Source: Fibrobacter sp. (GTDB taxonomy: Bacteria > Fibrobacterota > Fibrobacteria > Fibrobacterales > Fibrobacteraceae). From it: 64,000 nt of DNA. Shown one piece after another: positions 5,951-57,062 of the stretch. The stretch covers positions 1-64,000 of the forward strand of contig JAKSIH010000001.1 of assembly GCA_024398935.1 (NCBI GenBank), read 5' to 3'. The notes beneath the pieces were generated by a model. The model was not told where the DNA came from. It ran no database searches and saw only the letters and a program-made list of their open reading frames with translations. Both the position numbers and the translations under genes were made by a program. Position 1 is the stretch's first letter; every line of letters starts with the position of its first letter.

Positions 5951-6130
5951 ATGTCGAATGCGGAAGTTTTGCACCAACTATTTGCGCAATGTCAAAAGAT
6001 CAATTTTGACGAATCCTATGATATTATCGCTTCTGCCCAAAGTCAGGACGAGGCGGACTTCTTTCGCCTTGCAACGGATTTGATTCTCAAACAGAAGCAG
6101 AAGAAGGTCGTCGAAGAGAATCGGTTCTGA
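5951..6130 (+). CDS. Small antitoxin-like protein upstream of a zeta-type toxin
   Basis: Fifty-nine residues beginning MSNAEVLHQLFAQCQ and ending VVEENRF. They are polar and mostly helical (FDESYDIIASAQ, DEADFFRLATDLIL). It has a good Shine-Dalgarno sequence. Its TGA overlaps the toxin ATG (TGATG at 6128-6132), so the two are translationally coupled. Small acidic proteins of this kind commonly precede zeta-like kinases and are presumed to be their antitoxins, as epsilon is for zeta. The sequence is not the classical epsilon fold that I can recognise, so the role is inferred from position and size. A second copy lies at 8115-8288. Confidence 0.75.
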   Translation: MSNAEVLHQLFAQCQKINFDESYDIIASAQSQDEADFFRLATDLILKQKQKKVVEENRF

Positions 6131-6675
6131 TGAAACGATATATTCTTTTTGCTGGGTGCAATGGCGTCGGGAAGTCAACTCTCTATCAGACGAACGAGAT
6201 GTTCCGCGAGATGCCACGCGTCAACATGGACGAAATTGTTCGCGAGTTTGGCTCATGGAAAAATGAGGCCGACGCATTCAAGGCCGGCAAGATTGCAATT
6301 TGCAAGATCAGGGATTACTTTTCGCTTGGCCTTTCGTTTAATCAAGAGACGACGCTTTGCGGACAATCTGTGTGGAAAAATATCCGGCAGGCGCGACAAC
6401 TTGGCTACAGGATAGAAATGTACTATGTTGGGGTCCAATCTGTTGAAATTGCCAAGGAAAGAATACGAGGCCGTGTTTTAAAAGGTGGGCACGGTATCCC
6501 GGATGCCGATGTCGAACGTCGCTTTATCGAGTCTATTGAAAATCTTCAAAAAGCCATTCAGCTTTGTGACGTAGTTGAAGTATTTGACAATACGGAATCT
6601 TTTATTCGAGTTGCGCGCTTTGAATGTGGTCAATGTGTTTTGAGAACCGAAGGTGCGCCGGACTGGGTACCATAA
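6130..6675 (+). CDS. Zeta toxin family P-loop kinase
   Basis: A 181-residue protein with Walker A GCNGVGKST (9-17), the substrate-side motif NQETTLCG (about 72-79) and the family motif RVLKGGHGIPDADVERRF (about 117-134). Zeta toxins phosphorylate UDP-N-acetylglucosamine or related UDP sugars and so block peptidoglycan synthesis. The protein is shorter than streptococcal zeta (about 287 residues) but matches the compact Gram-negative type. It overlaps the antitoxin stop codon. Both catalytic motifs look intact, so the toxin is probably active. The next RHS fragment begins just after its stop. Confidence 0.85.
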   Translation: MKRYILFAGCNGVGKSTLYQTNEMFREMPRVNMDEIVREFGSWKNEADAFKAGKIAICKIRDYFSLGLSFNQETTLCGQSVWKNIRQARQLGYRIEMYYVGVQSVEIAKERIRGRVLKGGHGIPDADVERRFIESIENLQKAIQLCDVVEVFDNTESFIRVARFECGQCVLRTEGAPDWVP

Positions 6676-6692
6676 TTTCCGTTGAGGCTCGA

Positions 6693-7616
6693 ATGAACAA
6701 TGCGACTTGTGAAACATGCCTGCGCAAGCAGGGCACGACGTGTGTGGCCCTTGACGAGTTCTACCTCAAGAATCACCTCGGCAGCACGGTCGCTGTGATG
6801 GACAATGGGGCAGTAAGCACGCTTAAGTCCGCCTACGATTACCGTGCATTCGGCGAGCAGGTAGATTTGGAACAGAAAGGTGACAAGGTGACCGAGAACT
6901 TTACGGGCAAATGTTCGCAAGGCGAGTGCTGCGAAAATACACTTGTGTATTTTCATTGCCGAGCCGCTGGACATAGCGCTTTGCGCCAGGAGAAGGATGA
7001 CGAGACCGAGCTGAACTACTTCGGCGCAAGATATCTCGACCCCATGCTCGGATTGTGGGTGAGTGTGGATGCTGCAAGGCAGTATCAGAATCCGTACCTG
7101 TATGCTGGCAATAATCCTGTTATGCGTACTGATCCCGATGGAAATGCGGATGTTAACGCGATTATAAATGGCGCTCAAGAATATATGTACAACATGTTCA
7201 TGAGTTTGTTTGTAAAGCCTCAGTTGGAGAAAGCCTTTGAAACAAGTGTTGAAGTTGGCAAGGATGCTATGATTGTTTCTTCTGTGGCCTATGGCGGAAT
7301 GCTAGCTACTGGAGCGGTCGTTTTGGGTGGACCGATTGCCGTAGAGGCTGCGACAAATTATATAGCTATGAATGGACCAAGTTTATATCTTGCTGCCAAT
7401 TCTTTTGCACATAATCCTGCAAATTATTTGAAAGCCATCGAAATTGGTTTTTTGGGTTCTGTTTTTACAAAGGGAACTTCTTTAGAACAACCTTATAATG
7501 AGTTTGTTGATGGATTGTCAAATGCTTTGCCAGAAGAAATTGTTCCTGCCGGCCTTAGCAACGGACGTAATTTGGGTAATTTTGTTATGGATTTTTTACC
7601 AACTTATGAAGAATAG
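6693..7616 (+). CDS. Orphan RHS core fragment with a hydrophobic C-terminal toxin-like domain (cassette b)
   Basis: An open frame of 307 codons from ATG 6693; a further in-frame ATG at 6624 overlaps the zeta gene. RHS similarity starts at FYLKNHLGSTVAVMDNG, continues through YDYRAFGEQVDLEQ and ENFTGK, and after a 26-residue insertion resumes with DDETELNYFGARYLD, WVSVDAARQY and TDPDGN. The insertion (about 6911-6988) is an in-frame hairpin repeat also found elsewhere in the window. The last 145 or so residues are an unrelated variable domain, hydrophobic in the middle (SSVAYGGMLATGAVVLGG), which suggests a membrane-active toxin. The N-terminal bulk of an RHS protein is absent. Whether the fragment is expressed is unknown. 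Confidence 0.75.
   Translation: MNNATCETCLRKQGTTCVALDEFYLKNHLGSTVAVMDNGAVSTLKSAYDYRAFGEQVDLEQKGDKVTENFTGKCSQGECCENTLVYFHCRAAGHSALRQEKDDETELNYFGARYLDPMLGLWVSVDAARQYQNPYLYAGNNPVMRTDPDGNADVNAIINGAQEYMYNMFMSLFVKPQLEKAFETSVEVGKDAMIVSSVAYGGMLATGAVVLGGPIAVEAATNYIAMNGPSLYLAANSFAHNPANYLKAIEIGFLGSVFTKGTSLEQPYNEFVDGLSNALPEEIVPAGLSNGRNLGNFVMDFLPTYEE
6919..6990. repeat. Hairpin repeat (copy 1) inserted in frame in RHS cassette b
   Basis: It contains a perfect inverted repeat GAAAATACAC-TT-GTGTATTTTC (6933-6954), preceded by AAGGCGAGTGCTGC and followed by ATTGCCGAGCCG. The same frame sequences surround different complementary arms at 39491-39533, 56698-56745 and 56778-56821. After it comes AGCGCTTTGCGCCAGGA, partly shared with the end of the 56.8 kb copy. 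The insertion adds 78 bp (26 codons) without breaking the reading frame. Confidence 0.75.
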
Positions 7617-8114: not shown

Positions 8115-8288
8115 ATGTCTAATGCAGAAGCTTTGCACCAACTGTACGCACAATGTCAAAAAATTAATTTTGACGAATCCTATGACATTATCGCTTCTGC
8201 TCAAACTCCGGATGAAGCGGATTTCTTTCATCTTGCTACAGATTTAATTCTCAAACAGAAAAAAGTTATTGAAGAGAATCGATTCTAA
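8115..8288 (+). CDS. Second copy of the small antitoxin-like protein
   Basis: Fifty-seven residues, close to the 59-residue protein at 5951: both start MSNAE, share CQKINFDESYDIIASAQ and end EENRF. This copy lacks two residues of the lysine/glutamine run (LKQKKVIEEN). The stop TAA overlaps the next ATG (TAATG). It still has the promoter, operator-like palindrome and Shine-Dalgarno sequence, so it should be expressed. Its toxin partner, however, has been replaced by an unrelated domain. It could cross-neutralise the intact zeta toxin upstream. Confidence 0.75.
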   Translation: MSNAEALHQLYAQCQKINFDESYDIIASAQTPDEADFFHLATDLILKQKKVIEENRF

Positions 8289-38198: not shown

Positions 38199-39482
38199 AT
38201 GCTTAAATCTACTCTGCAGCAGACCGATAAGGCTATCTTCGACATCATCCAGGAAGAAGCCGAACGTCAGGAATATGGCATCGAACTGATCGCCTCCGAA
38301 AACTACACCTCCAAGGCCGTTATGGAAGCTATGGGCTCCGTGCTGACCAACAAGTACAGCGAAGGCTACGTTGGCAAGCGCTACTACGGTGGTAACGAAG
38401 TGATCGACAAGATGGAAGCTCTCGCCATCGAACGCTGCAAGCAGCTCTTTGGTTGCGAACACGCAAACATCCAGCCCCTTTCCGGTTCTCCGGCAAACGC
38501 CGCTGTCTACATGGGCGTCCTCAAGCCGGGTGACAAGGTCCTCGGTCTCAAACTGGACCACGGTGGACACCTTTCTCACGGCCATCCGGTGAACTTCTCC
38601 GGTATGCTTTACAACTTCGTTCAGTACGAAGTCGATAAGGAAACTGGCCGCATCGACATGGACAAGGTCCGTGAAATCGCCCTCAAGGAAAAGCCCCGCT
38701 TGATCCTCGCTGGCTTCTCCGCTTACAGCCGTAACCTGGACTGGAAGAAGTTCAAGGAAATCGCCGACGAAGTTGGCGCTCTCACCATGGCTGACATTTC
38801 TCACGTTGCTGGCCTCATCGCTGGTAAGGCAATCGAATCTCCGGTTCCTTACTTCGATATCGTCACCACCACCACTCATAAGACTCTCCGCGGTCCCCGT
38901 TCTGCAATCATCATGTGCAAGGACAAGATGATCAAGAAGATCGTCAAGGGCGAAGAAAAGGAAGTCTCCCTGCCCAAGGCAATCGACGCAGGTCTGTTCC
39001 CGGGTATGCAGGGTGGTCCCCATGACCACATCAACGCTGGTAAGGCAGTTGCATTCCTCGAAGCTCTCCAGCCGGAATTCCAGACCTATGCCCAGAACAT
39101 CATCAAGAACGCAAAGGCCATGGCCGACGAACTGATGAAGCTCGGTTACAAGATCATTTCCGACGGTACCGACAACCACCTCATGGTTGTGGACATGACT
39201 TCCAAGGGTATCGGTGGTAAGGATGCCGAAATCGCAATGGAAAAGGTTGGCATCTCCTGCAGCCGTTCTACCATTCCGTTCGACACTCGCAAGCCCATGG
39301 ATCCGTCCGGCGTACGTCTTGGCACCGCTGCCATCACTACCCGTGGCTTCGACGAAAATGATTCCCGCTTGGTTGCTCAGATCATCGACCGTTGCATCCA
39401 GAACAAGGACAGCGAAGAAGGCCTGAAGGCTATCCGTCAGGAAATCATCGACCTCTGCAAGAAGCACCCGCTGTACGCATAA
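38199..39482 (+). CDS. glyA: Serine hydroxymethyltransferase
   Basis: A 427-residue PLP enzyme that converts serine and tetrahydrofolate to glycine and methylenetetrahydrofolate. Seen: ELIASENYTSKAVMEAMGS, YPEGYVG-like SEGYVGKRYYGGNEVID, ANIQPLSGSPANAAVYMG, DISHVAGLIAG, and the PLP lysine in VTTTTHKTLRGPR. A promoter motif TATCTTTG (38166-38173) and ribosome site AAGGAG precede ATG 38199. This is one of the genes here with a true leader. Codon use is strongly biased, as for highly expressed genes. Confidence 0.97.
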   Translation: MLKSTLQQTDKAIFDIIQEEAERQEYGIELIASENYTSKAVMEAMGSVLTNKYSEGYVGKRYYGGNEVIDKMEALAIERCKQLFGCEHANIQPLSGSPANAAVYMGVLKPGDKVLGLKLDHGGHLSHGHPVNFSGMLYNFVQYEVDKETGRIDMDKVREIALKEKPRLILAGFSAYSRNLDWKKFKEIADEVGALTMADISHVAGLIAGKAIESPVPYFDIVTTTTHKTLRGPRSAIIMCKDKMIKKIVKGEEKEVSLPKAIDAGLFPGMQGGPHDHINAGKAVAFLEALQPEFQTYAQNIIKNAKAMADELMKLGYKIISDGTDNHLMVVDMTSKGIGGKDAEIAMEKVGISCSRSTIPFDTRKPMDPSGVRLGTAAITTRGFDENDSRLVAQIIDRCIQNKDSEEGLKAIRQEIIDLCKKHPLYA

Positions 39483-39490
39483 GTTGTTGC

Positions 39491-39533
39491 AAGGTGAGTG
39501 TCGCGCGAGCACTTGTGCTCGCATGACCGAACC
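39491..39533. repeat. Hairpin repeat (copy 2) after glyA
   Basis: AAGGTGAGTGTC, then GCGAGCAC-TT-GTGCTCGC (39505-39522), then ATGACCGAACCG. It has the same frame as copy 1 at 6919 but different arms that remain perfectly complementary. A second small hairpin GCACTC-GTA-GAGTGC (39544-39558) follows. Confidence 0.7.
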
Positions 39534-39582
39534 GCATACAACTGCACTCGTAGAGTGCTATTATGCACAGCAAAATTTTGCG

Positions 39583-39673
39583 TAATTATGAAGTATGAAT
39601 TATTAATTATGAGACTTAGCTAGGCGGCTTCGCCGCGATTATAAATCTCATACATCATAATTCATAATTAAAA
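39583..39673. repeat. AT-rich inverted repeat with a GC hairpin core
   Basis: The left arm (TTATGAAGTATGAATTATTA and on) and right arm (CTCATACATCATAATTCATA and on) are largely inverted copies. The centre TTAGCTAGGCGGC-TTC-GCCGCG is like that at 34246-34266. The whole could fold into a long cruciform or RNA hairpin. No gene is seen. Confidence 0.6.
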
Positions 39674-55911: not shown

Positions 55912-56693
55912 TGAGCAACGGTCTTATGAATTTGACTTTGAAGATTTGGCGTCAGAAGGACTCCAAGACCAAGGGACAGTTCGAAACTGTCAAGATCAGC
56001 GGCATTTCTCCGGACATGTCCTTCCTGGAAATGTTGGATGTCGTAAACGAAGAACAGATGAAGCAGGGCAAGGAAGGCTTTGCATTCGACCACGACTGCC
56101 GCGAAGGCATTTGCGGTATGTGCTCTCTGGTCATCAACGGTATGCCCCATGGTCCCGACCACGGCATCACCACTTGCCAGCTGCACATGCGTAAGTTCAA
56201 GGATGGCGATACCATCGTGATCGAACCGTGGCGCGCTGCCGCATTCCCGGTTATCCGTGACTGCGCTGTGGACCGTTCCGCATTCGACCGCATCATCGCT
56301 GCTGGCGGCTACGTTTCCGTCAACACCGGTGCCGCTCCCGAAGCTTCCGTGATCCCCGTTCCCAAGGCTGATGCAGACCGCGCATTCGACGCTGCTGCTT
56401 GCGTTGGTTGCGGTGCTTGCGTTGCTGCTTGTAAGAACGCCTCTGCAATGCTCTTCGTTTCTGCTAAGGTTTCTCACCTCAGCTTCTTGCCCCAGGGCAA
56501 GGTCGAAGCCAAGAAGCGCGTGCTCGCTATGGTGGCACAGATGGACAAGGAAGGCTTTGGTAACTGCACCAACCTTTACGAATGCCAGGCTGCTTGCCCG
56601 AAGGGTATCACCGTGGACTACATCGCCAAGATGAACCGCGAATACCTCATGGCAACCGCTACCTACGCTGAAAAGGTGTACGGCAAGGACTAA
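55911..56693 (+). CDS. frdB: Fumarate reductase/succinate dehydrogenase iron-sulfur subunit
   Basis: A 260-residue electron-transfer subunit. The 2Fe-2S domain has [15 protein letters not shown]. The second domain holds [17 protein letters not shown] and [15 protein letters not shown], giving the cysteines for the 4Fe-4S and 3Fe-4S centres. It passes electrons from the haem b subunit to FAD. It is translationally coupled to frdA. After its stop a series of hairpin repeats and then a terminator follow, which may stabilise the mRNA end. Confidence 0.96.
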
Positions 56694-57062
56694 CAATGAG
56701 GCGAATCCAGCACGAAAATGCTTGCATTTTCGTATTGGTGAGCCGAGTGGTGAGAGACTCCGAAGGAGTCTCCTAATGAGGCGAGTGCAGCGACCATGCT
56801 TGCATGGTCATTGCCGAGCCGATTAAATCCGCGCTTGAACCGCTTGCGGTGAAAGCGCCAGGACTAAGAGGTTGAGGTATGAGGTCGGTCGCTTCGCTCC
56901 CTTTGAGGTGTGGGGCTTCAGGCCTTTGAGCTTGTCAAGAACTCCGTTCGGATAGACTCCGGGCGGAGTTTTTTTTACAAAAAATAAAGCCGCAGTGCCA
57001 ATGATTTTTCAAAAAAATGCTAAATTTTATCCATATTGTAAGTTTTAAAAAAGGATTACCTT
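56694..57062. repeat. Hairpin repeats (copies 3 and 4) and spacer after frdB
   Basis: Copy 3 (56698-56745): GAGGCGAATCCAGCA, arms CGAAAATGC-TT-GCATTTTCG (56713-56732), then TTGGTGAGCCG. Copy 4 (56778-56821): GAGGCGAGTGCAGC, arms GACCATGC-TT-GCATGGTC (56792-56809), then ATTGCCGAGCCG. Between them lies GAGACTCC-GAA-GGAGTCTC (56754-56772). Beyond copy 4 a nested hairpin GCGCTT...AAAGCGC is seen. The gap holds no gene; the rest is a terminator (56940-56976) and an AT-rich promoter region. Confidence 0.7.
56940..56976 (+). terminator. Terminator of the fumarate reductase operon
   Basis: AACTCCG (56940-56946) pairs with CGGAGTT (56964-56970), followed by a T-run; the loop holds a small extra hairpin. 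Confidence 0.7.

Follow-up and report, generated by a model that had tools for sequence, protein, structure and literature searches.

A small dispersed Fibrobacter repeat conserved as a fold, and its in-frame insertion into an orphan RHS fragment

The 26 extra codons that interrupt an RHS reading frame in the 64,000-nucleotide stretch of Fibrobacter DNA analysed here (the window) are best explained, with a probability that we put at about 0.78, as one copy of a small, non-autonomous dispersed element of about 75 to 80 nt that is restricted to the gut-bacterial genus Fibrobacter, present in high copy number, and conserved as a fold.

The interrupted frame (positions 6624..7616, + strand) is a 5′-truncated orphan RHS tip, referred to as cassette b, with a match to TIGR03696 (Rhs_assc_core, E 1.8e-14). 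As an earlier note made from the sequence had stated, the 26 codons, CSQGECCENTLVYFHCRAAGHSALRQ (78 nt, 6912..6989, + strand), lie in frame in the RHS core motif, with ENFTGK on one side and EKDDETELNYF on the other, and this was evident both from the translation and from comparison with six uninterrupted homologues. The insert cuts the Rhs_assc_core domain match, of which the alignment starts at residue 122, just past the insert, and covers profile positions 22-75 of 76. Because cassette b is an orphan tip lacking its 5′ part, the retention of the frame is weak evidence that a working protein tolerates the insert. Directly 5′ of the tip (5951-6675) are a small ORF and then a Zeta_toxin-like P-loop gene (PF06414, 23.5 bits, barely above the cut-off), and a comparable ORF pair, of which the second ORF is broken, begins near position 8115.

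A covariance model built from 18 copies of the repeat (R1) matches the insert at 6908-6977 with 69 bits. On the + strand, the predicted fold begins with the 5′ strand of an outer, copy-specific stem, P1 (ATGTTC, 6911..6916; supported by covariation of P1 across copies), followed by the 5′ half of the conserved core, GGCGAGTGCTGC (6921..6932), with a tandem G-A at 6924-6925 and a bulged T at 6927 that were identified from column conservation in alignment A3 (described below). The apical hairpin P2 has a 5′ arm, GAAAATACAC (6933..6942), and a 3′ arm, GTGTATTTTC (6945..6954), and is followed by the 3′ half of the core, ATTGCCGAGCC (6955..6965), where the consensus and column conservation place a second tandem G-A at 6961-6962. 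The 3′ strand of P1 (GGACAT, 6969..6974) is assigned by the fold and by P1 complementarity, and the hairpin P3 (GCGC-TTT-GCGC, 6976..6986) lies 3′ of P1. P2 is the perfect 22-base hairpin that had been reported earlier, with 10-nt arms and a 2-nt loop. The unit is more than this one palindrome: it is a larger fold of about 75-80 nt, in which three stems accompany a conserved core of non-Watson-Crick pairs.

Six Fibrobacter RHS homologues (L010:505, L012:1179, L214, L223, L229 and L215) read VTENFTGKE(K/L/H)DDE without interruption, and some of them sit on the same contigs as filled copies. The same point is filled in three homologues, with 26 extra codons in the window and 25 in each of L010:7052 and L012:3357, all multiples of three. 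Judged from these filled and empty sites (three versus six homologues), the 26 codons are an insertion. The window's cassettes a and d, which had been proposed as the empty copies, are indeed without the 26 codons, but ENFTGK is missing from them too; they read RVSKTR(E/M)RKERDDET, which is a different join, and are uninformative as empty sites.

The window and L010 copies both carry GGCGAGTGCTGCGAA...TTCATTGCCGAGCCG, and probably derive from one insertion event. Between these two alleles, P2 differs in length (22 versus 18 nt) and 1 nt is missing near the 3′ strand of P1, for a net difference of 3, such that the two alleles agree in frame at the exit but not in the central part of the peptide (HCRAAG versus IAEPMG). 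P1, P2 and P3 are paired in both alleles despite the sequence differences. Compensating indels have scrambled the peptides, and it is thus the fold and divisibility by three that are maintained, not the peptide; in this pair of alleles, selection or mutation acts on fold and frame and discards the peptide.

Across the family, the fold is composed, from the outside in, of P1 (3-8 bp that vary from copy to copy), a linker mostly ending in AA, GGY/RCC, a tandem GA/GA, and one pair; further inward are a single bulged base on the 5′ side, a short stem that ends with a near-invariant G.U, a near-invariant C.A mismatch, and P2 (7-10 bp or more, likewise copy-specific, with a loop that is often CTTG). 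A P3-type hairpin follows P1 in most copies. The consensus core is GGY-GA-n-bulge-nnnG-C / A-U-nnn-n-GA-RCC. The GA is present in 71 of 73 copies (column conservation in A3), and by column counts the stems vary, whereas GA/GA, G.U and C.A hardly change. In alignment A2, a MAFFT alignment of 18 copies that is independent of structure fitting, 94% of the core plus P2 helix was paired, and 12 of its 15 pairs had changed on both sides; whole-structure covariation was 0.425, compared to 0.166 (sd 0.021) after shuffling and no more than 0.182 after sliding. The corresponding value was 0.702 versus 0.209 for 72 distinct copies of the window's own genome in alignment A3, which was fitted to the model. 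An alignment-free measure gave a mean P1 complementarity of 5.25 nt versus 3.34, with a maximum of 3.65 in 300 shuffles. At a valS site filled in both the window's genome and genome G011 (L257, L242), P1 and P3 are kept and the P2 arms are unrelated, and the orthologous intergenic copies L055 and L057 keep P2 pairing through double changes. Taken together, these results show that the repeat is conserved as a fold and not as a fixed sequence, with strong covariation in all stems. The dozens of copies with rewritten stems in each genome amount to a natural library on how a structure is recognised or maintained.

The window's genome (G000) comprises 2.9 Mb in 76 contigs, and metagenome assemblies supply much of the data. 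The search of the genome and its relatives that the earlier note had suggested was carried out: this genome has six occurrences of the flank pattern GCGAGTGC..TTGCCGAGC, which encloses unrelated arms, and a stricter pattern, used to scan the genomes of 84,980 species, was found almost only in Fibrobacter, on 15 contigs, namely 11 labelled Fibrobacter, L012, and 3 in other phyla. The L012 contig (JAKSME010000123.1) is labelled Bacteroidales, holds a Fibrobacter-type RHS gene together with the repeat, and is probably mis-binned. The matches in Acidobacteria, Bradyrhizobium and an alphaproteobacterium were rejected as chance matches without paired arms. With R1, about 64 copies were found in the window's genome at E<0.01 and 9-103 copies in each of 18 other members of the genus, and no copy was above background in 12 genomes outside Fibrobacter (best E 0.05). 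The repeat is confined to the genus Fibrobacter. It had no match among 2.9 million viral contigs, and phage carriage was rejected; there was no relevant match among 4227 Rfam covariance models at gathering or permissive thresholds, and we found no description of the repeat in Fibrobacter in the open-access literature. It is a previously uncatalogued repeat and a new variant among small dispersed palindromic repeats.

Three further copies are present in the window, where repeats at 39.5 and 56.7 kb had been noticed earlier: one at 39479..39545 (+ strand, 60.7 bits with R1), in which the GGC/GCC core has covarying counterparts, GGT/ACC and GTC/GAC; one at 56686..56756 (+ strand, 55.6 bits), which like the former lies at the stop codon of the upstream gene; and one at 56766..56832 (+ strand, 64.4 bits), in tandem with the preceding copy. 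The sharing of flanks with the 56.7-kb gap was also confirmed, as they are exact there with 0 expected in 100 shuffles.

Several other elements were seen near repeat copies. At about 1165-1205 of the window there is a possible degenerate half copy, GTTGACACGAGTGTCGTGACCATGCGAATCGTG, that closely resembles the start of the L102 copy on contig C10 of the same genome. Just 3′ of the copy at 39.5 kb (39587-39668) is a long imperfect inverted repeat, ATTATGAAGTATGAATTATTAATTATGAGA ... TCTCATACATCATAATTCATAATTAA, which is an independent repeat type. Directly beside repeat copies on contig C56 of the window's genome, TGTTTCACGTGAAACA, which we take to be the textbook parS sequence of ParB, occurs exactly at L099:1436-1451 and L100:1597-1612. 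A reverse transcriptase gene at L003:857-1543(-) on contig C67 of that genome (PF00078, E 1e-9) adjoins a repeat copy, and its motifs resemble those of the reverse transcriptases of diversity-generating retroelements.

Recent insertions were dated by means of near-identical intact copies of thrS, carB, ileS and valS. Genome G009 has an intact thrS on contig C11 and comparable truncated thrS pieces on contig C27 (L212). These pieces contain net inserts of 79 and 80 nt beside stretches that are 98-100% identical to the intact gene, a further insert of 81 nt whose right flank has diverged more, and, at a different site that is also filled in L132 and L008, an insert of 76 nt. In the window's genome, the intact carB (C9), ileS (C3) and valS (C16) each lie within about 5 kb of a repeat-bearing piece, with net inserts of 131, 67 and 92 nt (carB), 79 nt (ileS) and 72 nt (valS) and flanks mostly 98-99.5% identical to the intact copies on the same contigs. 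Overall, the dated inserts range from 67 to 131 nt net and are often out of frame. The overlaps between flanks were 0, 1, 2, 3, 4, 6, 9 and 11 nt. With ends this fuzzy, and without a target duplication of constant size, the exact limits of the repeat unit are uncertain. The earlier proposal that an intergenic repeat entered a gene with the frame kept, as with Rickettsia palindromic elements, thus stands for the RHS gene, but it does not extend to insertion in general, given net lengths of 67, 76, 79, 80, 92 and 131 nt in truncated gene duplicates. Such duplicated pieces provide near-isogenic filled and empty sites and so open the insertion mechanism to direct study.

The truncated, near-identical duplicates of the essential genes carB, ileS and valS (L209, L210, L211) are 2.6-5 kb from the intact genes with cargo between, such as a PIN-domain gene (PF01850) after carB, and in G009 several thrS pieces share one contig (L212) with the intact gene on another. 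Duplicated essential-gene pieces with cargo look like the products of integration via homologous gene pieces. A second structured element found only in Fibrobacter, of about 130 nt (CGTTAGGGATAGTGACCCCTTGGGG...AATATAGCCCGACC...GGGAACGCCC) and unrelated to the 75-80-nt repeat, lies directly 5′ of the 5′-truncated gene copy at thrS, carB and valS, and in several cases directly after a cargo gene. It was found at L008:3758-3891(-), L036:720-843, L063:1609-1744(-), L132:2639-2772(-), L242:1391-1523(-) and 13 more places (alignment A6), at 0-5 copies per genome, and shows double changes in 22 of 39 predicted pairs. It had no Rfam match and was absent from 2.9 million viral contigs.

Placement relative to genes was evaluated with a simple codon-usage gene caller, which is crude and overlooks several of the truncated-gene cases; by this measure, most copies in the window's genome lie between genes. 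Of the copies no more than 12 nt from where the upstream gene ends, 17 were on the same strand as that gene and 4 on the opposite strand (binomial p 0.007, Fisher p 0.058). In the same genome, 26 linkers end in TAA, TGA or TAG, with TAA ranking second among the linker triplets. These numbers weakly suggest that the repeat may serve as a hairpin at mRNA 3′ ends.

It is possible, although we favour it less, that the repeat is a regulatory or stabilising mRNA structure selected at gene 3′ ends and that the genic copies are accidents of recombination. The conserved fold with its heavy covariation, the clustering of same-strand copies at stop codons, the stop triplets of the 26 linkers, and the double changes that keep L055 and L057 paired would all be expected of such a structure. 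Against it, many copies are distant from gene ends, antisense, or within pseudogene pieces, both a U-tract and a fixed partner gene are absent, and the clean insertions at new sites indicate spread irrespective of regulation. Removal of the repeat by RNA splicing, or its skipping by the ribosome in the manner of byp elements, would allow free interruption of genes and would fit the out-of-frame, stop-containing copies that break thrS, carB, ileS and valS sequences. However, every such interruption is in a truncated duplicate, and an intact gene survives in the same genome (thrS in G009, carB, ileS and valS in G000); we found no essential gene lacking an intact copy that bears an out-of-frame repeat. 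Because frame-breaking copies occur only where an intact gene remains, splicing or bypass is unneeded, and since each of the three RHS alleles carries an insert divisible by three, we regard it as very improbable. We give even less credence to the 26 codons being an ancestral RHS segment lost elsewhere: although three contigs are filled at this site, such a segment, which the earlier note expected in all homologous RHS cores if ancestral, is missing from the six Fibrobacter homologues with the canonical motif, and it belongs to a dispersed intergenic family.

A further alternative is a REP or BIME element that depends on a RAYT (Y1 HUH) transposase for its movement, of the kind found in enterobacteria and Pseudomonas. 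The repeats are likewise short, palindromic, extragenic, numerous, often in tandem and near gene 3′ ends, and Y1_Tnp genes are present in the carriers G001, G004, G005 and G009. This explanation nevertheless seems distinctly unlikely, as Y1_Tnp is absent from the near-complete carriers G003, G006, G008, G010 and G011 (with 30, 103, 22, 13 and 32 copies, respectively) and from the window's own genome, and the Fibrobacter stem sequences vary freely, whereas REPs conserve the stem and a GTAG/CGTC tag (PMC3733652). No mobilising enzyme was found for the repeat, whose mobility, presumably non-autonomous, is deduced from the insertions.

A more speculative idea, which we consider doubtful, is that the fold itself is what moves, not a sequence, and that each insertion copies the target to make an outer stem of its own, via template switching or an RNA- or ssDNA-templated mechanism. 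On this idea, the 5′ strand of P1 (A) and a direct repeat beyond P3 (A″) would match the site, with the strand A′ between them as the complement. A–A′ complementarity was 5.25 versus 3.34 and the A–A″ direct match 5.61 versus 4.33, both outside all 300 shuffles, so that the pattern is statistically real, albeit partly confounded by tandem copies, which inflate the signal. A/A″ repeats of 9-14 nt occur at sites such as L039, L049 and L058, and the pattern is missing at several dated insertions (thrS site 1). If the idea is correct, the element would rebuild a closed stem wherever it inserts; we know of no target-copying insertion of this kind, by template switching or from an RNA or ssDNA template, described for bacteria.

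Returning to the small non-autonomous element as the preferred reading, what is conserved is a nucleic-acid fold, with a copy-specific P1 closing on a core that bears a copy-specific P2, and with P3 usually next, and it spreads by insertion, as the filled and empty sites show. In this genome, as placed by the gene caller, copies persist mainly in three settings: just past stop codons, in gaps between genes, and within duplicated gene pieces that are decaying. In the RHS orphan tip, one insertion by chance added a multiple of three, so that a ribosome could read through 25-26 extra residues. Later changes in stem sequence and length were kept only where both fold and overall frame held, as comparison of the two alleles shows. 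Any benefit or effect might be that of a hairpin at an mRNA 3′ end.

Among known systems, the hairpins that arise by template switching (PMC8794818) resemble the orthologous copies with wholly different P2 arms in that both stem arms are rewritten at once, and template switching is a plausible route by which both arms of P1 and P2 are rewritten together. It is a mutation process, however, and leaves unexplained how a conserved core comes to be dispersed among new sites. A MITE was rejected because constant terminal inverted repeats and a constant-size target duplication are both absent, and an integron attC site was rejected because the consensus is GGYGA/GARCC and the AAC/GTT boxes of the R box core sites (RYYYAAC / GTTRRRY) are absent. 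Cyanobacterial small dispersed repeats and the double-hairpin elements of organelles are very small hairpins that insert cleanly and keep their pairing by compensatory change; they differ in sequence and host from the Fibrobacter repeat, of which the signature is the GA/GA, G.U and C.A core that spans the genus.

The RPEs (Rickettsia palindromic elements), which measure 105-146 bp, carry terminal inverted repeats and contribute an open reading frame by in-frame fusion, are comparable as short, genus-specific palindromic repeats that are both intergenic and in frame within genes, with implied read-through (PMC2229807). Like them, the Fibrobacter repeat is found both between genes and inside ORFs, and the earlier likening to them holds as regards in-frame entry into a gene. 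It does not hold further: the Fibrobacter repeat is confined to its own genus, is about 60-80 nt with a P1 that differs in nearly every copy instead of a conserved 105-146 bp with a terminal inverted repeat, has stems that all vary from copy to copy, and does not conserve the peptide. Three RHS alleles are in frame (that of the window being an orphan tip), and the copies in truncated thrS, carB and ileS pieces are mostly out of frame. With REP/BIME elements and REPINs with RAYT, it shares high-copy extragenic hairpins that are often in tandem and at gene 3′ ends, but it lacks a conserved stem or a GTAG-type tag, and several carriers lack a Y1 transposase. By analogy, then, the Fibrobacter repeat works like RPEs or REPs and is a member of neither: whereas known bacterial palindromic repeats conserve sequence, it conserves only a fold and a small non-Watson-Crick core.
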